64,000 nucleotides of DNA from Pigmentiphaga humi (GTDB lineage Bacteria > Pseudomonadota > Gammaproteobacteria > Burkholderiales > Burkholderiaceae_B): positions 186,001 to 250,000 of the forward strand of contig NZ_UWPJ01000039.1 in assembly GCF_900606115.1 (NCBI RefSeq), given 5' to 3'. The translations under genes and the position numbers were made by a program. Positions 7,365 through 17,205 of this stretch are shown here, in pieces (position 1 is the stretch's first letter; each line of letters opens with the position of its first letter). The notes beneath the pieces were generated by a model that had not been told where the DNA came from, made no database searches, and saw only the letters and a list, made by a program, of their open reading frames with translations.

Positions 7365-8954
7365 ATGGGTTCCTTCGACTTCTCAAATGCCGAGCTGCCG
7401 CGCCTGCTGCCGCTGGAAAACAGCTATGCGGAGAACGGCGTCGAAGCCGACCTCAAGCAGCTATTCCTTGACCTGTTCAACCAGCACCTGGCGGCGGACA
7501 CGTTCGACGTGAACGTGCTGGGTGCCGCGCACCTTGGCAGTTTCGACTTGGTGCGCCGGGCGGTAAACACCGATGGTTTGGTGCTGATGCAGGGCGACCG
7601 TGAAGAGGCGGCTACCCGCTACTTGTACCGGGCCTGGAAGTCGGGCGATGTTCAGGGGCGCGGGCTGCACTTCCTGCGCACGTACCTTCAGATGCTGTTC
7701 CCGAATCTGTGTCAAGTCGATCAGCTTTGGCACGACAAGAACATGCCGTACCCGACCGGGCTGTATTCGTCCAAGCCCCGGTTTTCGTGGTGGCTGCACC
7801 AGCTTGGTGAGCCGGGCCTGAAGCTGGACGGTTCCTGGGGTGTTGGGCGACGCATCCAGGATGCGGACGAAAGTCGCGCCGACCGCGAGGTCGATACCGA
7901 CAATATGTATCTGACCAGCCGCGTGGAAATCGTGCTGGACTTCAGCGTGAACGTGCGTTCGGTGGCAAGCCTGATGCACATTATCCGTTCGGTGATACCG
8001 GCGCGCTTGCTGCCGCTGTTCCGATTCTGGCTGACTTTCGTGCTGCACCTGGAGATCCTTGCATCGTCCAGCCTGTTCATGGAAAAGAACGCCAAGATGC
8101 GTTACCCGTGGTGCGGGCGCGTCATTGGCGAATCCGATGATGTCCGCTGGAAACTGGGCCGCGACGGTGAGATGGTAAAGCTTGGCCTGCCGTTCGGCAC
8201 CTTCCGCCTGGGCGAGATTCGAGGCGGCAAGTCGGTGTGGCGGCTGAAAAGCTGCCGCATCGAAAGCGACCTGCTGATGGAAAGCCACGCCAGCGCGTCC
8301 GCCTACCGGCTGCCCACGATTGGAGAAAAAGACCGGCGACTGGACGGCACCTGGCGGCTGGGTGGGCGGTCGATATACGTGGGCAGCCGTGCGCTCATGC
8401 AGAAGCGCGTCAACATGGATGTTCCCGCTGACCTGCTGACGACATTCCACGAACACCACCAGATCAAGTATCCGGCCAACCCCGCGCGTCTGGGCGCGCG
8501 TGTGCGCCTGTCATCCTGGCGTCGCCTGGATGGCCGCTGGAAAGTGGGCGGCCTTCTGGCTCCGCGTCCGTTCGGCTTCACCCTGGAGCGCGGCGAACCT
8601 TTCCTGATTGAAAGCAGCACGACCATGGCATCCGAGGCTTCTATGTGGGCCTTCCCGGAGCGCCTGACGCGCGCGGCGGCAACGAAGGTGACAGGCACAC
8701 CGCGCCAGCTCAATGGTTCCTGGTACTTGGGCGCAGAGAACAAGCTGGGGCGCTTCCGGCTGAATGGCCGCCGCCTGCGGGCCATGAAGATGACCAAATA
8801 TCCGCGCCTGGGCCACTTCAAGGTGGCCGCCGACATACCGGGCGAAGAACAGTATGTGTCCGGCACCGTCCGACGCCTGCGCCTGGATGGTGGGTGGCAA
8901 ATCGGCAGCCCAGCGGCACCCGAGTTCACTTTTGAGGCGTTCAAGGTGGGTTAA
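7365..8954 (+). CDS. tail protein I-like baseplate/fibre-attachment protein with LDGxW repeats
   Basis: This 529-residue protein starts three bases after the J-like stop. Residues 1-230 resemble the phage tail protein I family that follows J in P2-like baseplates (LPLENSYAENGVEADLKQLF; LRTYLQMLFPNLCQVDQLWH). The rest is unusual: a short motif [K/R/Q]L[D/N]GxWxxG occurs five times, near residues 155, 326, 388, 449 and 507 (for example RLDGTWRLGG and RLDGRWKVGG). This suggests a repeated beta-structure, possibly a fibre-docking or carbohydrate-contact surface. The function of the repeat is inference. Confidence 0.65.
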   Translation: MGSFDFSNAELPRLLPLENSYAENGVEADLKQLFLDLFNQHLAADTFDVNVLGAAHLGSFDLVRRAVNTDGLVLMQGDREEAATRYLYRAWKSGDVQGRGLHFLRTYLQMLFPNLCQVDQLWHDKNMPYPTGLYSSKPRFSWWLHQLGEPGLKLDGSWGVGRRIQDADESRADREVDTDNMYLTSRVEIVLDFSVNVRSVASLMHIIRSVIPARLLPLFRFWLTFVLHLEILASSSLFMEKNAKMRYPWCGRVIGESDDVRWKLGRDGEMVKLGLPFGTFRLGEIRGGKSVWRLKSCRIESDLLMESHASASAYRLPTIGEKDRRLDGTWRLGGRSIYVGSRALMQKRVNMDVPADLLTTFHEHHQIKYPANPARLGARVRLSSWRRLDGRWKVGGLLAPRPFGFTLERGEPFLIESSTTMASEASMWAFPERLTRAAATKVTGTPRQLNGSWYLGAENKLGRFRLNGRRLRAMKMTKYPRLGHFKVAADIPGEEQYVSGTVRRLRLDGGWQIGSPAAPEFTFEAFKVG

Positions 8955-9040
8955 CCCTCTTGGATTCGGAAAATGCCGCCGTTTCGGGCAGTTCCGGGCA
9001 GCAAGAATGGCTGGCATCACGACGTTCTAGGAGGACTGGC

Positions 9041-9421
9041 ATGGCCGAAGCCGTGGTAGCCAATATTTATCGCCGCCGCATCGCCGCTCGCATGGCCGGT
9101 GGCGCAAACATCGCGCCCATTGCCTTTATGGCGTTCGGCGACGGCGGGCATAACGCGGACTTGACGCCGAAAGCGCCGTCCGCCAACGCCACTTCACTGA
9201 ATAACGAGATTCTGCGCAAGCCGCTGGCGGCCATCACGCAAGAAGACCTGTATTCGGTAACGGGCAAGGGGGCGATTGAAGCCAATGAGGTTGTCGGTGC
9301 GGGAATTTCCGAAGCGGCCCTTATTGACGCCAATGGAAACCTCGTCGGCTTGAAGACGTTTGCGCCGAAGTTCAAGGAGAACGACGAGCGTTACGAAATC
9401 AGTATCAAGCTGCGCTTTTAA
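9041..9421 (+). CDS. tail fibre-associated protein, DUF3751-like
   Basis: This 126-residue protein begins at an ATG with a strong AGGAGG at 9030-9035; a longer in-frame opening from 8960 lacks a ribosome site and is not preferred. The N-terminal half (IAPIAFMAFGDGGHN) and the C-terminal strand (LKTFAPKFKENDERYEISIKL) resemble the N-terminal attachment domain of phage tail-collar/fibre proteins. It probably links the fibre to the baseplate. It sits 11 bp before the larger fibre gene. Confidence 0.6.
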   Translation: MAEAVVANIYRRRIAARMAGGANIAPIAFMAFGDGGHNADLTPKAPSANATSLNNEILRKPLAAITQEDLYSVTGKGAIEANEVVGAGISEAALIDANGNLVGLKTFAPKFKENDERYEISIKLRF

Positions 9422-9432
9422 GGAGCCTTCAA

Positions 9433-10350
9433 ATGGCATTGCCCCACCCGAAAATTACCCCGCTTCCCAACAATGAACCCGACGCGGTTCCTTCCCTGTG
9501 GAACACCCGCTATGACGAGATTGATGCGAACTTCGCTGATCTGGATGGCCGTCTTGTCGCTCGTGAAAATGAACTGAACGCGGCGCGCGGCGGGAAAGCG
9601 AATCTTGGCATCCGCCTGAATGAACTGGAATCCAGTGTGTCCGGCCAGTCGGAGGAGGCCGACAACAACAAGATCGCCGTTTTGCTCTTTGCGCTGCAAC
9701 AAGCAGCGCTGGCAAATTCAGGCGTCAACACCCTGAAGACGGTCGCCCAACAGGAAGGCGAAATCGTCATTACGAACCGTGGCCTGATTCGCGGCTGCGC
9801 GGCCAGCAAGTCCACGACCGCCACGCGGAACCTGAATTTCACCGATGGCGCCTGCTTTGCGCAGGGCCGCGCGTTTGCCGTCAGCGGCACCGATAACGCG
9901 GCCAGCGTTCCCAGCAATCCGTCCGGCTCTTCCGTCACGGTGCGCGCGTATCTGTTTCAGGATGCCAACGGCTCGTGGCGGCCCGCAGTGACGCCGGTCG
10001 GCACCGACGTACCGGACGGCGCTATCACGCTCTACCAACTGACCATCCCCGCCGGTAATACCGACGCGACAGACCCCAATTTGAGCGGCGTCACGCTGAC
10101 CAGCGTGCGCCGGTTTGAGCCGCAGTTCCCTCTGCTGCTCGATAGCCCGCCCACTCAGACGGTCGCCATCAACACCCTTGGCGCTTCCGACTACCAGCTT
10201 GCGTTCGATGTGGTGTCCGCTCAAGGCGCGCCCTGCGGCGCTGACGCCGTGGTTGCGCATAGCCGCGCCACCAATGGCTTTTCCATTGAGCTGCACAGCG
10301 CAGCAGATAACGTGCGCCTGCGCTGGAAGCTCTCGCGCTTGAGCAACTAA
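9433..10350 (+). CDS. phage tail fibre protein
   Basis: This 305-residue protein has a good ribosome site (AAGGAG) ahead of its ATG. An N-terminal segment (WNTRYDEIDANFADLDGRL) is typical of fibre attachment regions, followed by a short heptad-like helical stretch and a beta-rich distal part (VTVRAYLFQDANGSW, LYQLTIPAGNTDA). It is probably a trimeric fibre stalk that carries or supports the diversified receptor-binding protein encoded two genes downstream. There is no chaperone-like or enzymatic motif. The fibre call comes from composition and position. Confidence 0.6.
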   Translation: MALPHPKITPLPNNEPDAVPSLWNTRYDEIDANFADLDGRLVARENELNAARGGKANLGIRLNELESSVSGQSEEADNNKIAVLLFALQQAALANSGVNTLKTVAQQEGEIVITNRGLIRGCAASKSTTATRNLNFTDGACFAQGRAFAVSGTDNAASVPSNPSGSSVTVRAYLFQDANGSWRPAVTPVGTDVPDGAITLYQLTIPAGNTDATDPNLSGVTLTSVRRFEPQFPLLLDSPPTQTVAINTLGASDYQLAFDVVSAQGAPCGADAVVAHSRATNGFSIELHSAADNVRLRWKLSRLSN

Positions 10351-10370
10351 CCCCCTCGAAGGAGAAAACA

Positions 10371-10706
10371 ATGGCACGTATTCAATTGAAGCAGCCCGGC
10401 CAGGCCGTGGCTGATTTTGCGGTGGACGGCCACGTCATCACCGTGGCCGGTGTCCTGGTGGACTGCCGCGAATTGCAGCAGGACAGCATGCAAGTCGTTG
10501 AGGTGCGCCAGTCCGGCAGCACCGCCCATATCGGTGGCGATGGCGCGTACCTGGCGCACATCGTCATTCCGGCCCGCGTCTACGAAGAGATTCCGGTCGA
10601 AGGCGGCGAGGAAGACGAGGGCGAAGAGGGTCAAGGCGTCGAGCGCGTGGCCCAGGAGCTTGACCCCAACGCCATCGAAGTAACCCTCTGGCCCCTGGCG
10701 AACTGA
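10371..10706 (+). CDS. hypothetical phage protein, acidic
   Basis: This 111-residue protein has a clear AAGGAG site upstream. It has a beta-rich N-terminus (GHVITVAGVLVDCRELQQD), a strongly acidic run around residues 72-85 (EEDEGEEGQG), and a C-terminus ending VTLWPLAN. It lies between the fibre gene and the DGR target gene, in the same operon. The position suggests a fibre chaperone or connector; I do not recognise the family. Confidence 0.6.
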   Translation: MARIQLKQPGQAVADFAVDGHVITVAGVLVDCRELQQDSMQVVEVRQSGSTAHIGGDGAYLAHIVIPARVYEEIPVEGGEEDEGEEGQGVERVAQELDPNAIEVTLWPLAN

Positions 10707-10739
10707 TCGCCAGGGTAGCCGCAACTATTGGAGAAATTC

Positions 10740-11840
10740 ATGCCCAGCATTTACGTGAAAGACGAGCTACGCGCATCCGTCGAGGCCGCCAGCGGCGGCA
10801 AGCAGACCATCCTGTATACCGCCGGTGGACAGCCGTCCATCATGAACGTCGTGCCGAAGTTCAATCTGGAAGACATTGATGTCAGCCTTGGCACCGGCGT
10901 CCACCCCGCATTCATCGTCGGTGGCGTCGAGAAAAGCGAGCTTTTCATCGGCGCGTATCAGGGAATCATCAAGAACGGTGAGCTGGTTTCGCTGGCCGGT
11001 GTTGACCCCAGCGCCTCCGCCAATCACGACACATTCGTGAATGCAGCGCGGGCAGCCGGGCCTGGCTTTCACCTCACCACGAATGCGGAGTACGCCGCGT
11101 TGGCCTTGTGGTGCCAGAAAAACGGTTTCCAGCCGCGCGGCAACAGCAACTACGGTCGCTCCCACGAAGCCACGCACGAAACTGGCCGCCGTCAGGATGG
11201 TGGCACCCCCGGCGCCATCAGCGGCACCGCCCGCACTTTGACTGGCTCCGGCCCCGCATCGTGGCGTCATGACAATACCCCGAACGGTATTTCCGACCTG
11301 TGCGGGAATATCTGGGAATGGTCGCCTGGCATGCGCTTGATGGACGGTGAAATTCAAGTCATCCCCAACAACGACGCTGCGCTGCATACCACTGACTTGG
11401 CGCGTACTTCCAATGCCTGGCGCGCTATCCGCGCAAGCGACGGCGCCCTGGTGGCTCCCGGCACCGCTGGCACCCTCAAATACGACGCCTCAAGCCCGAC
11501 CGGCGGCAGCATCGTCCTTTCCGACGCCATTACCAACCGTCTGGGCGAGCTGGGCGACGACGCGAACTCCGGTAACTCGGCGTCCGGTGCGCTGAAGAGC
11601 ATGACGGCCAAGGCTGGCATGAATGTTCCTGCCATCGTCAAGGCGCTGGGCCTGTATCCGGCTGTGCCTGAAACGATGAAAAGCGACAGCGCCTATATGC
11701 GCAACTATGGCGAACGTCTTCCGTATCGTGGCGGCAACTGGAGCAGCGGCGCGGTTGCCGGGGTGTTCGCCGTGTACTTGAACAACTCGCGGGGCTACTC
11801 CAGCTCGGGCTTCGGCGGTCGGCCCGCTTTTGTGATCTGA
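10740..11840 (+). CDS. DGR-diversified receptor-binding protein (FGE/C-type lectin fold)
   Basis: This 366-residue protein starts at ATG 10740 with GGAGAA just upstream; a TTG four codons earlier is less likely. Residues about 85-200 show formylglycine-generating-enzyme/C-type-lectin features: AEYAALALWCQKNGF, RHDNTPNGISDLC and GNIWEW at 189-194. The C-terminal residues 326-364 are the DGR variable region, with the fixed frame GGNW...LNNSRG...FGGRP. Nine codons there (335, 336, 339, 346, 353, 355-358) differ from the template repeat. By analogy with Mtd of Bordetella phage BPP-1, this is the tail-tip ligand that contacts the host receptor and is altered by mutagenic retrohoming. Protein size (Mtd is 381 residues) and gene order agree. 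The receptor is unknown. Confidence 0.85.
   Translation: MPSIYVKDELRASVEAASGGKQTILYTAGGQPSIMNVVPKFNLEDIDVSLGTGVHPAFIVGGVEKSELFIGAYQGIIKNGELVSLAGVDPSASANHDTFVNAARAAGPGFHLTTNAEYAALALWCQKNGFQPRGNSNYGRSHEATHETGRRQDGGTPGAISGTARTLTGSGPASWRHDNTPNGISDLCGNIWEWSPGMRLMDGEIQVIPNNDAALHTTDLARTSNAWRAIRASDGALVAPGTAGTLKYDASSPTGGSIVLSDAITNRLGELGDDANSGNSASGALKSMTAKAGMNVPAIVKALGLYPAVPETMKSDSAYMRNYGERLPYRGGNWSSGAVAGVFAVYLNNSRGYSSSGFGGRPAFVI
11714..11832 (+). repeat. DGR variable repeat VR1
   Basis: These 119 bp at the 3' end of the receptor-binding gene align without gaps to TR1 (12601-12719; offset 887). The first 29 bases are identical. The 11 substitutions that follow are all at template A: six A-to-G and five A-to-T. 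After the last one come 17 identical bases (11812-11828), the candidate initiation-of-mutagenic-homing segment, then one C/T mismatch at 11829. The TGA stop lies eight bases beyond the repeat end. Confidence 0.95.
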
Positions 11841-11860
11841 AATCTGTGGTGTGCAATCTG

Positions 11861-11886
11861 ATGGGGTGGGCGGTAGCACGCCCCAT
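11861..11886 (+). promoter_or_regulatory. hairpin just downstream of VR1
   Basis: The arms ATGGGGTG and CGCCCCAT can form an eight-pair stem, one of them a G-U pair, around a ten-base loop. There is no T-run, so it is not a classical terminator. BPP-1 needs a hairpin or cruciform shortly after its VR for efficient retrohoming, and this element is in a comparable place, about 30 bp beyond VR1. The role is inference. Confidence 0.4.
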
Positions 11887-11904
11887 TTAAACAGGAGCTT
11901 TGCA

Positions 11905-12204
11905 ATGAATATCACGCATCTTGAGCATGCGGTCGTCACGCTCATCGTTCAGGCGCTATTTGGCCTTGCGTTCGGGAACTGGTTTATCGGCGGTGTAATG
12001 GCTTGCTGCTGGTGGATGGGCCGCGAACATGCGCAAGCTGAAGATCGCTGGGTTGGCCGGTTCGGCCAAGGCCGCCGCGCGAACATGCCATGGTGGGGCG
12101 GCTTCGACCCGAAGGCGTGGCATATGGACGGCCTGCTGGATTGGGTTATTCCGATTGTCGTGGCCATTGTGCTGTACGTGGTTTCGCTGGTGATCGGAGC
12201 ATAG
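11905..12204 (+). CDS. small two-helix membrane protein, possible holin
   Basis: This 99-residue protein starts at ATG 11905 with AGGAG upstream; an earlier in-frame opening is not preferred. There are two hydrophobic segments: residues about 8-36 (VVTLIVQALFGLAFG...GGVMACCWWMG) and 76-98 (VIPIVVAIVLYVVSLVIGA), with a basic, Trp-rich link between them. Size and topology fit a phage holin or other small inner-membrane protein. It sits between the VR gene and avd1; BPP-1 has no gene there. No lysis enzyme gene is adjacent, so holin is only a possibility. Confidence 0.6.
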   Translation: MNITHLEHAVVTLIVQALFGLAFGNWFIGGVMACCWWMGREHAQAEDRWVGRFGQGRRANMPWWGGFDPKAWHMDGLLDWVIPIVVAIVLYVVSLVIGA

Positions 12205-12208
12205 GCTT

Positions 12209-12595
12209 GTGTCGGAGCAGGTTGAGCAGGTTCAGAAAAACGATCTGTTAATTCGCCAAAAATGCGAAGCGATGATCGCTTATGGATATACGGTGCTGCG
12301 CCACTTCCCGAAGGTCGAGCGCCATGTGCTGGGCGCGGAGATTCGCACGACGATGTGGGCGCTATTGCGGCTGATCGTGGTGTGCAATAAGCGCTATCAC
12401 AAGAAAACGACCCTTCAGGAACTGGACGCAGAGCTTGACCTGCTTCGGTCACAAATCAGAACCGCAAAGAACCTTGGCTATCTGGACTTCGGCAAGTACG
12501 AAAACTGGGCCAAGCTGAACGACGAAATAGGCCGCATGGTAGGCGGCTGGGTCAAATCCATCGCCGGAGACGGCGGCGGTGGGGGTGTGCGTTGA
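12209..12595 (+). CDS. avd: DGR accessory variability determinant, copy 1 (Avd1)
   Basis: This 128-residue protein starts with GTG at 12209, five bases after the preceding stop, and has exactly the length of BPP-1 Avd. It is predicted all-helical: CEAMIAYGYTVLRHFPKVER, then RTTMWALLRLIVVCNKRYHK, then KTTLQELDAELDLLRSQIRT, then NDEIGRMVGGWVKSI. This matches the four-helix-bundle DGR accessory protein whose basic pentamer binds the RT and the template RNA. A Gly-rich tail ends it. TR1 begins five bases after its stop, so one transcript would cover avd1, TR1 and RT1. Avd2 at 13955-14308 is a clear but diverged paralogue, sharing for example NEIGRMVGAW against NDEIGRMVGGW. Confidence 0.9.
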   Translation: MSEQVEQVQKNDLLIRQKCEAMIAYGYTVLRHFPKVERHVLGAEIRTTMWALLRLIVVCNKRYHKKTTLQELDAELDLLRSQIRTAKNLGYLDFGKYENWAKLNDEIGRMVGGWVKSIAGDGGGGGVR

Positions 12596-12600
12596 AAACG

Positions 12601-12719
12601 ACGTCTTCCGTATCGTGGCGGCAACTGGAACAACGGCGCGAATGCCGGGGTGTTCGCCGTGAACTTGAACAACTCGCGGGGCAACTCCAACACGAACATC
12701 GGCGGTCGGCCCGCTCTTG
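12601..12719 (+). ncRNA. DGR template repeat TR1
   Basis: This is a non-coding template lying between avd1 and RT1. It holds 24 adenines in 119 bp, mostly as AAC codons in register with the VR reading frame; 11 of them are changed in VR1. The encoded reference segment would read RGGNWNNGANAG...GGRP. Adenine-specific differences only, plus one C/T at 12716 near the 3' end, are the signature of RT-mediated mutagenesis. The RNA is expected to extend into the downstream hairpin and spacer before RT1. Confidence 0.95.
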
Positions 12720-12733
12720 GGGAAAGTCAGAAG

Positions 12734-12755
12734 CGCCAGGCTCACGGGCCTGGTG
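12734..12755 (+). ncRNA. conserved hairpin in TR1 downstream spacer
   Basis: The stem CGCCAGGC/GCCTGGTG (eight pairs, one G-U) closes a TCACGG loop. It begins 35 bases (core stem 12736) after the GGCGGTCGG segment of TR1. The same loop, at the same distance, follows TR2 (14466-14483), and an AGAAG motif precedes both. In BPP-1 the spacer RNA just after TR is needed for cDNA priming and RT-Avd binding, so this is probably that element. Confidence 0.7.
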
Positions 12756-12893
12756 ACAGCACACCCCTCAAAAGGACGCATATCCCCCGGCAACAGGAAT
12801 CCTGAAGCCGAAAGATTAAACAGGCGGCCCTAGACAGTAGCTTTGTAAGCGACCCCTAGCAGCCGCCGCCCTTCGGGGCTGGTTTGTGGTGTT

Positions 12894-13958
12894 ATGGCTA
12901 AGACGTACAGCAACATTTATCCAGAGATTTACAGCTTCGAGGCTCTTCACGCGGCCTATATCCGCGCCAGGCGCGGCAAGCGTGACAGAAGGGAAGTTCA
13001 GCAATTCGAGCTTGACCTTGAGGGCAACCTGATTCAGCTCCAGAACGAGCTGATCTGGGGCATGTATAAGACGGGACGGTATCGAACCTTCGAGGTGTAT
13101 GAGCCGAAGCAAAGGACGGTGGCCGCGCTGCCGTTCCGCGACAGAGTGGTTCAGCATGCGCTGGTGGCGGCCATTGAGCCGATCTGGGAGCGGCGGTTCA
13201 TCCATGACAGCTTTGCGTGTCGGCCCGGCAAGGGGACGCATCGCGGCGCCGACCGCGCCCAGCAGATGCTGCGCAAGGTGAAGCGGGAGCACGGCCATGT
13301 CTACGTGCTGAAAGCTGACATCGCCAAATACTTTTACTCCATCGACCACGGCATCCTGAAACGCTTGCTGCGCCGTCGCATCCGGTGCAAGCGGACGCTG
13401 ACGCTACTGGATAGCATCATCGACTCGACGGCGGTGCCGGGCGACCCGAATCCGGTTGGGCTGCCCATTGGGAATCTGACATCGCAGCTTTTTGCAAACC
13501 TGTATCTGCATGAGCTGGATGAGTTCGTGAAGCACGGGCTGCGCGAAAAATACTACGTGCGCTACATGGATGATTTCATGATTGCCAGCCACGACAAGGA
13601 GCACCTGCACCGGCTCCGGGCGAAGATCGAGGCGTTTCTGTGGGATACCTTGCGCCTCAAGACGAATGCGAAAACCCAGGTGTTCCCGGTTGGTGAGCGC
13701 CGTGGCCGCGCGCTGGATTTTCTTGGCTACCGGATATGGACGACACACCGGCGTATCAGAAAAAGCTCAATTTCTCGCATGTCGCGGACGCTCAAGTACC
13801 TGCGCAAGCGATACGCAGCGGGCAAGGTTGAGCTGTCGAAAATCCGCGAGTCCGTCGTTTCGTGGATTGCCCACGCCAGCCACGCGGAAACCTTCGGCCT
13901 GCGCAACAAGCTGCTGGCCAGTGTTTCATTTAGCCGCAGCGAGGGTAGGGAGCCGTGA
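12894..13958 (+). CDS. brt: DGR reverse transcriptase, copy 1 (RT1)
   Basis: This 354-residue protein makes the adenine-mutagenised cDNA from TR RNA. It shows RT motifs in order: LKADIAKYFYSID with the first metal-binding Asp at about 142, GLPIGNLTSQ at 189-198 (the SQ ending in motif 4 is characteristic of DGR and related RTs rather than retrovirus-type SP), YMDD at 224-227, and GRALDFLGYRIW. There is no maturase, RNase H or endonuclease domain, as expected for DGRs. The ATG lacks a strong ribosome site. The 174-bp spacer from TR1 to the start codon holds the conserved hairpin. The stop overlaps the GTG of avd2, so both cassettes are translationally coupled. Confidence 0.95.
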   Translation: MAKTYSNIYPEIYSFEALHAAYIRARRGKRDRREVQQFELDLEGNLIQLQNELIWGMYKTGRYRTFEVYEPKQRTVAALPFRDRVVQHALVAAIEPIWERRFIHDSFACRPGKGTHRGADRAQQMLRKVKREHGHVYVLKADIAKYFYSIDHGILKRLLRRRIRCKRTLTLLDSIIDSTAVPGDPNPVGLPIGNLTSQLFANLYLHELDEFVKHGLREKYYVRYMDDFMIASHDKEHLHRLRAKIEAFLWDTLRLKTNAKTQVFPVGERRGRALDFLGYRIWTTHRRIRKSSISRMSRTLKYLRKRYAAGKVELSKIRESVVSWIAHASHAETFGLRNKLLASVSFSRSEGREP

Positions 13959-14308
13959 GCGACGCACACATGAGGCTGATGACCAAGCTGGAAGAGCTGG
14001 ACGCATACACGCATACCGTGCTTCACCAGTTCCCCAGGATAGAGCGCCACCTGTTGAGTGCCGAAATGCGGGGAGCCATGAACAAGGTGATGCGACAAGT
14101 GGTTGTGGCCTGGAAGCGCAAGCAGAAGTCAGCCGCGCTTTTCGATCTGGACGTGGAGGTAGAGGTGTTTCGCGGCCTCATCAGAAAGGCCCACCGGCTT
14201 GGCTATATCAACACCGAGCGTCTTGAGGTGTGGATGCGCCATACGAATGAAATAGGGCGGATGGTCGGTGCCTGGATAAAGAACGAGGGAGGGAAGGCCA
14301 TGCAATAG
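13955..14308 (+). CDS. avd: DGR accessory variability determinant, copy 2 (Avd2)
   Basis: This 117-residue protein starts with GTG overlapping the RT1 stop (GTGA). It is an all-helical paralogue of Avd1 with the same order of blocks: VLHQFPRIERHLLSAEMRGAM, VVVAWKRKQKSAALFDLDVEV, then HTNEIGRMVGAWIKN. Lys/Arg-rich faces suit RNA binding. It lies in the same position relative to TR2 and RT2 as Avd1 does to TR1 and RT1. Strong divergence from Avd1 suggests an old duplication, or a second element acquired separately, with matched partners rather than a redundant copy. Confidence 0.88.
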   Translation: MSDAHMRLMTKLEELDAYTHTVLHQFPRIERHLLSAEMRGAMNKVMRQVVVAWKRKQKSAALFDLDVEVEVFRGLIRKAHRLGYINTERLEVWMRHTNEIGRMVGAWIKNEGGKAMQ

Positions 14309-14330
14309 CGCCTGCACCGTCAAAGAAATG

Positions 14331-14447
14331 GGCATGGGCTTATTCCGGCGGCAATTGGGGCAACGGCGGCAACGCTGGCCTCTTCCATCTCAACGTCAAC
14401 AACGGCGCGGAGATCTCCAACCCGATCATCGGTGGTCGTCTCGCAAA
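14331..14447 (+). ncRNA. second DGR template repeat TR2 (no target seen in window)
   Basis: This segment lies between avd2 and RT2 and aligns to TR1 without gaps (offset 1730). In the lectin frame it reads GGNWGNGGNAG...IIGGR, homologous to the VR protein segment, with AAC/AAT codons at exposed positions (GN, GGN, LNVNN, SN). That frame has no start codon after the last upstream stop and runs out shortly downstream, so it is a template rather than a gene. The exact 5' and 3' limits are uncertain because its VR is not in the window. Confidence 0.85.
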
Positions 14448-14465
14448 CGATTCAGCCAGAAGGCG

Positions 14466-14483
14466 GGCAGCTCACGGGCTGCC
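14466..14483 (+). ncRNA. conserved hairpin in TR2 downstream spacer
   Basis: The stem GGCAGC/GCTGCC closes a TCACGG loop identical to the TR1 spacer hairpin. It starts 35 bases after the GGTGGTCGT segment of TR2, exactly matching TR1. The stem sequences differ but pairing is kept, which is covariation supporting an RNA structure. Confidence 0.7.
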
Positions 14484-14608
14484 GTCCAGCGCTTTTCCTT
14501 TGGGGCCTGTGTCCTGACCATGTTGTCAAAGATGAACAGGACGCCACGGCCAGTATCCGGCAAGCCGGAGAACGTGGTGGCGTCTGCACCCACCCCAACA
14601 GGATTCTC

Positions 14609-15691
14609 ATGCCGAAGACCATCACCGGCCTATGGCCGCACGTCACTCAATTCGATAACCTTCACCGCTCCTACCTTGAGGCCCGCCGCAGCAAGCGATA
14701 CCGGCCAGACGTTTTGCAGTTCACCGAGAGCCTGGAAGCCAACCTGTTCGATATTCAGGATGCGCTGATCGACAAAACCTGGGCGCCCGGCCCGCAGCGC
14801 GAATTTGTTGTGCGGGAGCCGAAGCTGCGCGCCATCCAAGCGCCGCCGTTCGCTGATCGCGTGGTGCATCACGCCCTGGTGGGCGTCGTCGGCCCGCATT
14901 TTGAGCGCCGGTTCATTTCCGATTCATACGCCTGCCGCCAAGGGAAGGGAACCCAGCGCGCGGTCGCGCGTGTGCAGCACTTCCTGCGGGTAGCCAAGCG
15001 CAACCATGGCGACGGGATCTACGTCATGCAGGCCGACATCAGCAGGTATTTCGCCAGCATCCGGCATGACGTGCTCATGCGTGAGGCCGCGCGCGTCATT
15101 TCCGACCCGGACGTGCTCTGGCTGTGGCGGCGCATCGTGGCGGGCTACGGTCACGAGAACGGCGTGGGCTTGCCGGTGGGTGCGCTGACCAGTCAGCTCG
15201 GCGCGAACATCGTTCTGAACAGGCTCGATCACGTCGCCAAAGATGATATGGGCCTGCGGCACTACGTCCGTTACATGGACGACTTTATTGCCGTTTTGCC
15301 TACCAAGCATGCAGCCCAAGAGGTTATGCAGGTGATGGAGGCGGTGGTAGGTGATCTGGGCTTGCATCTGAATCCGAAGACGGCTGTTCATCCGTGGCAG
15401 CGTGGCGTGGACTTCTGCGGATACAGAATCTGGCCGACGCATATCCTGCCGCGCAAGAGAAACATCAAGCGGGCGCGCGCAGACTTCCGGGATCTGGCAA
15501 GCCAGTTCTATCACGGAGAGGTGGAGCTGGAGCACGTTCGCCAGAGGGTGGCGTCGTTCTTGGCGTATGCGAAACACTGCAACGCGCAGCGCACAGTGGA
15601 GGGCGTTCTGGGCGACTTGGTGCTTGTGCCTGGCTTACGTGGTATTGTTGCCGCAAATGCAGGAAATAACAGGCAATTTGTATCAAGATAA
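14609..15691 (+). CDS. brt: DGR reverse transcriptase, copy 2 (RT2)
   Basis: This 360-residue protein starts at ATG 14609, where homology to the RT1 N-terminus begins; the frame is open further upstream, but that part overlaps TR2. Motifs are VMQADISRYFASI (first metal Asp about 143), GLPVGALTSQ at 187-196 with the DGR-type SQ, YMDD at 222-225, and GVDFCGYRIW. The N-terminal block LHRSYLEARRSKRYRPDVLQF aligns with RT1. All catalytic residues are present, so it appears functional. It is the last gene of the phage-side operon. A nearly empty region of about 400 bp with inverted repeats follows before the integrase remnant. Confidence 0.93.
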   Translation: MPKTITGLWPHVTQFDNLHRSYLEARRSKRYRPDVLQFTESLEANLFDIQDALIDKTWAPGPQREFVVREPKLRAIQAPPFADRVVHHALVGVVGPHFERRFISDSYACRQGKGTQRAVARVQHFLRVAKRNHGDGIYVMQADISRYFASIRHDVLMREAARVISDPDVLWLWRRIVAGYGHENGVGLPVGALTSQLGANIVLNRLDHVAKDDMGLRHYVRYMDDFIAVLPTKHAAQEVMQVMEAVVGDLGLHLNPKTAVHPWQRGVDFCGYRIWPTHILPRKRNIKRARADFRDLASQFYHGEVELEHVRQRVASFLAYAKHCNAQRTVEGVLGDLVLVPGLRGIVAANAGNNRQFVSR

Positions 15692-15827
15692 TATGATGGT
15701 ACGTGTGCTGGTACGAATCCCGCAGAGAGCAATAAAACCTTTACAAATCAAGCCACTACAAAGCATGAAACAATAGAGTGGGAGTGAATTTAGGTCCTTT
15801 GAGGACTATCGCCAGCTATCGGAAAAA

Positions 15828-16088: not shown

Positions 16089-16785
16089 ATGCTGACCGAC
16101 ACTGCGCTGCGCAACCTGAAGCCTAAGTCTTTGACTTATAAGGTTTCTGACCGGGATGGGATGTACGTGACGGTATCGCCCTCCGGTACCGTCACCTTCC
16201 GCTACGACTACCGTCTCAACGGCCGCCGCGAGACCCTGACCATCGGCCGCTATGAGCCAAGTGGCATTTCGCTGGCGATGACGCGCGAACTGCTCTTGGA
16301 GGCGCGCAAGACCGTTCTCCAGGGCATATCGCCCGCGCTGGAGAAGCAACGCGACAAGCGCCGGGTTCGCGCCATCAAGACCTTTGGCGCGGCGATGGAG
16401 ACGTACCTCACCCATACAAGATGGGCCGACAGCACCCGCGCCGTGCGCAAGCACATCATCGACCGGGACATCCTGCCGGTCTTCCAGAATCGCCTGCTGA
16501 CCGAAATCCAGGCCGAAGACCTCCGGATCTTGTGCAACAAGGTCAAGGAACGAGGCGCACCGGCCACCGCGGTTCAGATCCGGAACATCGTGAAGCAGGT
16601 CTATGTCTATGCCACCGCCCACGGTGAAAAGGTAGCCAACCCCGCCGACAGCGTGGGGGCGGCCTCGATCGCCACCTTCGTACCGAAGGGCCGCTCCCTG
16701 TCGCCGCTGGAAATCCGGCTGACGGTGCAGCAATTGGAGTCCGTGGCGACCTATCCGGCCATCAAACTGGCGCTGCGCTTGGACG
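16089..16785 (+). pseudogene. int: tyrosine integrase, truncated before catalytic domain
   Basis: The ATG at 16089 has an AGGAG site. The N-terminus (LTDTALRNLKPKSLTYKVSD, then RYDYRLNGRRETLTIGRYEP) is the DUF4102 arm-binding domain of P4-type integrases. Residues about 95-200 form the core-binding domain (TFGAAMETYLTHTRWADSTR). Homology stops near PAIKLALRL, where the catalytic domain should begin; the frame continues for about 24 unrelated residues to 16856. The R-H-R-Y catalytic set is missing, so the protein cannot recombine DNA by itself. The break coincides with the start of an AbiEi remnant in another frame, which indicates an internal deletion. Confidence 0.85.
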
Positions 16786-17205
16786 GCAGGGCGTTTGCCG
16801 GATTGGTTTACCGAACGTTTCCCGGCCGAGTACCACCGCAAGCGGCTGTTCGATGAGCAGCCGGATGCCTTGCTCCACGCCGGCCCATTCGAGAAGCGCA
16901 ACGGGGCGCCGCAGGTATCGGCGCCAGAGCGCGCATTATTGGAACTGTTGAGCGAGGTTGGGGTGCGTCAGCCCTTGCAGGAAGCACGCGAACTCGTTGA
17001 GGGTGCGTACAGCTTACGCGCCGACGTGTTGGGCGAGTTGTTGCAGCACTGCACGAACGTCAAGACCGTGCGGCTGTGCCTGCAACTCGGGCGCGAGGCG
17101 TCATTGCCTTGGGCGGCCAAGCTCGACCCGGCCACGCTGCCGACGGGCAGCGATAGGCCTTGGGTGTCTCGCTCGGCCGATGGCCTTTTGGTGCTCAAGC
17201 CTTGA
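16786..17205 (+). pseudogene. AbiEi-like antitoxin, 5'-truncated
   Basis: This is an open segment of about 137 residues with PDWFTERFPAEYHRKRLFDE, then SAPERALLELLSEVGVRQPL, then YSLRADVLGELLQHCTNVK and a final WVSRSADGLLVLKP. This matches the C-terminal domain of type IV antitoxin AbiEi proteins, which are transcriptional repressors of abiE operons. The N-terminal winged-helix DNA-binding domain is absent; the frame starts at the integrase junction. No intact AbiEii nucleotidyltransferase follows. Confidence 0.65.

Follow-up and report, generated by a model that had tools for sequence, protein, structure and literature searches.

Phage diversity-generating retroelements (DGRs) are usually read as one cassette tuning one tail protein; can a single phage carry two? 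The question is raised by a prophage of Pigmentiphaga humi, part of which lies in the window analyzed here, a stretch of 64,000 nucleotides (nt) of contig NZ_UWPJ01000039.1 (C43:186001-250000) from a 5.1-Mb draft genome in 56 contigs (GCF_900606115.1). At window positions 12209-15691 it contains two complete DGR cassettes, head to tail and in the same direction, each with an accessory gene (avd), a template repeat (TR), and a reverse transcriptase (RT) gene. We conclude with good confidence that two complete DGRs, differing in ancestry and in target, sit in one prophage here; their separateness and history are what we infer. This suggests that two targeted-mutation programs may run at once, and independently, in one virus.

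Two cassettes and two targets

The plus strand reads, in order, the first target gene (VT1, which ends in variable repeat VR1), a 99-amino-acid (aa) open reading frame (ORF), avd1, TR1, RT1, avd2, TR2, RT2, and the core of the right attachment site, attR (Table 1). Avd1 and Avd2 score 112 and 81.2 bits against the Pfam bAvd model (cut-off, 40), and both also match the PHROG "Avd protein of DGR." RT1 and RT2 match PHROG 1423, "Reverse transcriptase," with E values of 6.7e-147 and 2e-121, respectively. Both keep the YMDD and LTSQ motifs, and neither contains a stop or a frameshift, the latter of which an earlier note, made from the sequence alone, had named beforehand as refuting. The GTG start of avd2 overlaps the TGA stop of RT1 at 13955-13958, the last 4 bases of RT1. 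The long ORF of RT2 opens at 14432 and reads through the spacer; the RT2 of relatives starts at 14609. The earlier note had described two strongly diverged RTs with both motifs, two distinct Avd proteins, two TRs in the identical order, and the avd2 overlap, all of which is borne out, with an adenine-specific repeat pair for each TR. Its span of 11714-15691 begins at VR1, inside the VT1 gene.

In the RT phylogeny that the same note had proposed (125 rows from a quick method, its long branches being flagged), RT2 falls among the DGR RTs, in a clade of 60 rows (SH-aLRT, 100) and RT1 in a clade of 15 (SH-aLRT, 99), and each clade includes single-cassette relatives. RT1 and RT2 are 42% identical, versus 80% between RT1 and its relative L186 and 76% between RT2 and L045. 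The source genome holds a further RT, 30% identical to RT2, at G000:C26:76627-77358.

TR1 pairs with VR1 at the end of VT1. Across 127 nt, 14 of the 18 mismatches fall at TR1 adenines (Fisher, 2.5e-8), and within the 115-nt core all 11 do; a whole-genome search with TR1 gave no significant match besides TR1 and VR1. VT1 stands at the end of the tail module and is homologous to Thermus aquaticus TaqVP (PDB 5VF4; E value, 1.1e-113; residues 5-366), by which we class it as a TaqVP-like, putative C-type-lectin protein with a C-terminal VR. Cassette 1 appears to rewrite this tail protein.

No VR for TR2 was found within the window, where the best other place is TR1. A whole-genome search with TR2 gave one further strong match, at C43:144303-144404 on the minus strand (E value, 4.5e-27; next best, 0.19), which forms VR2, the 3′ end of a 321-aa gene, VT2. 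All 15 mismatches across 102 nt lie at TR2 adenines (Fisher, 4.9e-13), with 0 non-adenine mismatches in 80 sites. Judged by this pairing, cassette 2 appears to rewrite VT2, encoded far off among early genes. VT2 matches phrog_5302, "tail protein" (E value, 9.6e-35), and 5VF4 weakly over only ~80 residues; a Pfam search gave no match. Nearly its whole length is homologous to the last ~310 aa of the fibers of phages that carry cassette 2 without cassette 1 (RT2-only phages), and these fibers are 852-868 aa long in 17 of the 18 measured (L061, 955 aa from an upstream start). On this homology, we take VT2 to be a free-standing relative of a tail-fiber tip. A VT2 relative modeled with AlphaFold gave a mean pLDDT of 52, too low for the model to be of use.

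The same pairing is present in 4/4 phages, that of the window and three others with both cassettes (L013, L014, and L015): each TR matches its own VR over 102-119 nt with 0-1 non-adenine mismatches, and cross pairs match over 15-26 nt only. The earlier note's interpretation, that both sets may work with private partners and possibly on targets elsewhere, is supported: VR1 is the sole partner seen for TR1 in the window phage, and TR2 is matched by the remote VR2 alone.

Table 1 Features of the double array and its surroundings (window positions unless prefixed C43)
Feature	Position	Strand	Basis or remark
305-aa fiber-like protein	9433..10350	+	Only first ~70 aa match N terminus of ~855-aa diversified fibers of RT2-only phages
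111-aa protein, phrog_8734	10371..10706	+	
VT1, target protein 1, TaqVP-kind variable protein (phrog_2889)	10740..11840	+	PDB 5VF4 match
VR1, variable repeat 1, 3′ end of VT1	11714..11828	+	11 mismatches to TR1, all at TR1 adenines
99-aa protein, phrog_1443	11905..12204	+	
avd1, cassette 1 accessory protein	12209..12595	+	PF22296 bAvd, 2.5e-32; phrog_3206
TR1, template repeat 1	12601..12715	+	Pairing with VR1
Sp1, TR1-RT1 spacer, conserved RNA structure (predicted)	12716..12893	+	Covariation, 11 sequences
RT1, DGR reverse transcriptase, 354 aa	12894..13958	+	Family models, tree, motifs
avd2, cassette 2 accessory protein	13955..14308	+	PF22296 bAvd, 9.6e-23
TR2, template repeat 2	14346..14447	+	VR outside window, C43:144303-144404 (minus)
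Sp2, TR2-RT2 spacer, conserved RNA structure (predicted)	14448..14608	+	Covariation, 19 sequences
RT2, DGR reverse transcriptase, 360 aa counted from start common to relatives	14609..15691	+	
attR core GAGTGGGAGTGA, prophage right end	15776..15787	+	
VT2, 321-aa gene, 3′ end is VR2	C43:144296-145261	-	TR2/VR2 pairing

The prophage and the surroundings of VT2

Apart from gaps, C43:132811-201787 runs collinear to a 78.9-kb IMG/VR phage up to attR, where the collinearity stops. The 12-base attachment core, GAGTGGGAGTGA, makes up the final four codons of guaA (called by Pfam GMP_synt_C) at C43:131235-131246 (attL) and recurs at attR; by our own estimate, the chance expectation of such a match in the stretches compared is ~0.1. 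The prophage is ~70.5 kb long, has an integrase gene at its left end (C43:131506-132795), and includes VT2. VT2 and RT2 lie 55.3 kb apart in the prophage and ~13 kb apart across the att junction of the circular phage. The distance is 50-63 kb in all five related phage records measured and 29-39 kb in G106 and G107. Just past attR, a 255-aa tyrosine-recombinase ORF (window 16089-16856) with arm and central domains, and without a catalytic-domain match, suggests that another element sits at the 3′ end of guaA.

VT2 belongs to a leftward block composed of a repressor-like gene (C43:147415-148143), VT2, and genes for an Erf-like annealing protein, a RecE-like exonuclease, and ssb. Homologs of ssb, Erf, RecE-type exonuclease, or CII occur in the stretch analyzed around VT2 in 12 of 14 distinct phages, the window phage included (G104 by a 66-aa stretch only). 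In G107, VT2 lies beside a Mu-type transposase gene and an AAA gene and on the same strand as those; the locus (L335; G107:C5:126001-142000, positions 7604-12785) belongs to a Mu-type prophage of Gulbenkiania mobilis. In G106, VT2 lies ~5 kb from a primase-like gene and adjoins bacterial two-component genes. The early-side position thus holds across different kinds of phage. G008 and G103 (same coordinates) were counted once, as were G107 and G115 (same identities). A rule that VT2 always lies on the strand opposite RT2 was rejected: the strands are opposite in 9 of the 11 readable phages and the same in G106 and G107, the relation being unreadable in G101-G103, where the genes are on different contigs.

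Upstream of VT2, the window phage has a terminator-like hairpin and a TTGACA-17-TATAGT site (11/12, by consensus matching only), and a predicted terminator lies 54 nt past VT2. Consensus matching gave 3 promoter-like sites in the VT2 region against 1.4 expected. The terminator is not general, since a clear hairpin follows VT2 in only 6 of the 14 phages (window, G110, G101, G102, G103, and G112), with a weaker one in G109 and none in 7. Beside VT2, C43:145287-145760 (L009:11287-11760, minus strand) encodes a 157-aa membrane-type protein matching phrog_11227, "protease," with a below-cut-off match (E value, 6.6e-4) to the transmembrane domain of TRADD-N systems. This protein was rejected as a fixed partner of VT2, which it adjoins in 1 of 13 other phages (G112).

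What the phage would gain by varying VT2 admits two readings. We tentatively suppose, at somewhat less than even confidence, that VT2 is an early or lysogeny protein, so that cassette 2 would diversify a nonstructural function independently of the tail DGR; if so, VT2 might, for instance, exclude rival phages or bind a host factor that is itself variable. The other reading, which we consider possible and rather doubtful, makes VT2 a second virion adhesin, the phage varying two receptor-binding proteins. Its matches to phrog_5302 and to the fiber ends point that way, whereas VT2 is too short to include the fiber's N-terminal anchor and keeps company with early genes, namely, one or more homologs of ssb, Erf, exonuclease, or CII in the 12 phages, those for the transposase and the AAA protein in G107 (a thirteenth phage), and the primase-like gene in G106. 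A diversified early-region protein in 14 distinct phages, one of them Mu-type, poses the question of what phages must vary besides the tail.

Probable history, activity, and separateness of the cassettes

All eight RT2-only phages in which both targets were read (L016, L018, L019, L021, L045, L047, L048, and L050) have one TR2 and two targets, the fiber beside the cassette and a remote VT2. All 16 pairs are adenine specific, with 0-2 non-adenine mismatches, and between the two VRs of a given phage, 10-16 differences lie at adenines and 0-3 elsewhere. Three more (L020, L054, and L058), compared for the fiber alone, also have 0-2 non-adenine mismatches. Loci with RT1 alone have their own adenine-specific TR/VR pair in VT1 (11/11 tested), with 6-16 adenine mismatches and 0-4 others (0 in six loci, 1-2 in three, and 4 in two). 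Full-length VT2 was found in 0 of 9 RT1-only virus records, all possibly fragments, which gave weak partial matches or none.

No large fiber was found in the phages with both cassettes (tandem phages). Residues 1-69 to 1-73 of their 305-aa protein match 4 of the 5 fibers tested at 56-61% identity, and VT1 and cassette 1 follow this protein. Of the 11 RT1-bearing loci tested, 9 have this protein complete or almost so (partial in L184, no match in L189), and the RT1-only L186 has the same tail module at ~77% DNA identity. The history that we propose would begin with an RT2-type phage whose one TR served both the fiber tip and VT2. An incoming tail module with its own DGR would then have displaced the fiber by VT1 and cassette 1, and the older cassette 2 would have been retained because VT2 still uses it.

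Identity around the cassettes is 95.9-97.5% among three tandem phages from different hosts (L013, Burkholderia; L014, Pseudothauera; L015, Pigmentiphaga), which have different VR1 and VR2. They share one TR1 sequence. In VR1, 12, 14, and 17 of the 23 adenine sites differ, as against 0-1 of the 89 sites of other kinds. TR2 is the same or has a single difference; VR2 shows changes at 14-15 of 26 adenine sites and at 2-4 of the remaining 86. Outside the VR, their VT2 genes have 11-15 synonymous and 1-4 nonsynonymous differences. Ratios of nonsynonymous to synonymous divergence (dN/dS) are 0.00-0.27 in the computable near pairs for RT1, RT2, Avd1, Avd2, VT1, and VT2 outside the VR (no ratio can be formed for avd1 of the window and L043, where 2 differences are nonsynonymous and 0 synonymous). 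The adenine-biased VR differences, together with purifying selection on the RTs, Avds, and target scaffolds, indicate that both cassettes were probably active recently, in keeping with the earlier note's view that both sets may be functional.

Covariation predicts a structured spacer RNA between TR and RT in both cassettes. Both-side changes support 15 of 31 pairs in the Sp1 consensus and 14 of 36 in that of Sp2, values reached in 0/500 shuffles each, and slid structures score far lower than observed; these controls are optimistic, since the sequences are related and the structure was derived from those very alignments. Each RT-Avd pair would reverse transcribe the RNA of its own TR and spacer, making errors at adenines, and the resulting cDNA would replace its own VR, picked via private repeat ends. 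It is unlikely that one RT-Avd pair serves both TRs and the other is redundant. The two TR-spacer RNAs are indeed similar in layout, and DGRs with several TRs are recorded (PMC6642488, section 13); against this, each lineage retains its own spacer RNA with covarying stems, both RTs have dN well below dS, and a TR/VR pair of its own is present in loci of either single-cassette type. A phage with two DGR lineages offers a natural test, within the same cell, of how RT, Avd, and TR-spacer RNA recognize one another and how the VR is chosen.

Several points weigh against two separate, working DGRs with the history proposed. The separateness of the two RTs is argued from one-cassette relatives. The direction of the module swap is likewise argued from comparison, many RT1 records being fragments, and the two RT1-only loci with 4 non-adenine mismatches are L184 and L186. 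A promoter scan of the cassette region found 0 sites against 2.1 expected. L043, whose RT1 and RT2 are 99% and 98% identical to those of the window phage, has 11 non-adenine mismatches in 80 sites between TR2 and VR2, so its VT2 allele is not fresh from its TR2; as its VR2 has drifted and this VT2 shares just 64% identity with the one in the window phage, the gene appears to have another origin. L071 has a deletion (9766-10867) that took TR2 and fused avd2 to about residue 60 of RT2, leaving cassette 1 intact. Cassette 2 is therefore dispensable in some lineages. L043 and L071 would also fit a cassette 2 that is a decaying passenger, with cassette 1 alone at work and VR2 keeping old changes. 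For the window phage this is quite unlikely, given the adenine-only mismatches of its TR2 and VR2, the adenine changes in VR2 of L013-L015 beside so few nonsynonymous differences in the rest of VT2, and the low dN/dS of avd2 and RT2.

Relatives were gathered with RT1 and RT2 queries and an RT alignment (best 80 of 583 for the alignment). Among 186 distinct RT loci in viral contigs, 3 have two RTs (L043, L044, and L071), and 30 RT loci in genome contigs include 3 true tandems (L013, L014, and L015); L044 is the DNA of L014 (100%) and was counted once. L042 was not counted as a two-RT locus, because its two pieces overlap as one RT in two frames. Because the samples center on this family and contain many truncated loci (75 of 186 have flanks of 1.8 kb on either side), they give no prevalence. 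Two RT2-match places in one record were found in 0 of 158 phage records with an RT2 match. The RT1-RT2 pair occurs in only G000 and G008 among 101 related genomes, and order-wide 10 of 399 genomes have a match at an E value of 1e-40 or better, only the window's genome having two. In L071, RT1 groups with L193 and L194 (support, 100), and RT2 joins rows that are RT2-only (100) and stands outside the window group; no RT2 was seen in the 1.0 and 2.2 kb present beyond RT1 in L193 and L194. (L184, with 165 bases beyond RT1, cannot show RT2 absence.) By these groupings, the cassettes were most simply joined at least twice, the alternative being repeated loss.

A same-order genome (L249; G194:C3, 174-1372) has an avd and its adjoining repeat duplicated in tandem, with two avd genes 547 bp apart and three ~105-nt repeats, perhaps through VR-TR recombination. 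For the window phage, tandem duplication of one DGR and later divergence, to which the shared gene order and the L249 duplication might point, is most improbable and was rejected on the RT tree given above, since the two RTs are of different DGR lineages and each is far closer to its single-cassette relatives than to the other.

Comparison with known systems

In Bordetella phage BPP-1, the avd gene goes by the name bbp7. As annotated in AY029185 (L236), the BPP-1 DGR (mtd-avd-TR-brt) has the arrangement seen here, namely, target, avd, TR, gap, and RT. It has one cassette and one adjacent target, whereas the window phage has two cassettes, from different lineages, and one of its targets is remote. 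TaqVP is described as having a C-type-lectin fold and a C-terminal VR (PMC6328139). VT1 is homologous to it over its whole length, VT2 over ~80 residues only.

DGR biology, remote targets, and several DGRs per genome are already known. In the portions of the DGR literature covered by our search, no phage with two DGR RTs in tandem was found, nor was a head-to-tail pair of different lineages with one member tied to an early-region gene; a 2018 Nucleic Acids Research survey of DGR architecture might describe a tandem. Searches confined to the surroundings of the RT miss remote targets, as a 2021 survey says of its own method (PMC8144416).

Stenotrophomonas SKA14, with two TRs and six VRs, may be related to the window system; section 13 of PMC6642488 does not state its RT count. 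A small nanoarchaeotal genome has four DGR cassettes and thus, as here, several distinct DGRs; those are archaeal and at separate positions, whereas the window pair is a fused phage array (PMC4372165). The genomes of Trichodesmium erythraeum and Thiohalocapsa PB-PSB1 exemplify multiple DGRs and targets remote from the RT (PMC8867640, PMC10907252). Their loci are dispersed in bacterial chromosomes, whereas the window's cassettes stand head to tail in one phage, with different targets. Phage DGRs in which one system has two target genes (PMC10743442) resemble the RT2-only relatives; the window phage differs from them in that its two targets have two TRs and two RTs between them.

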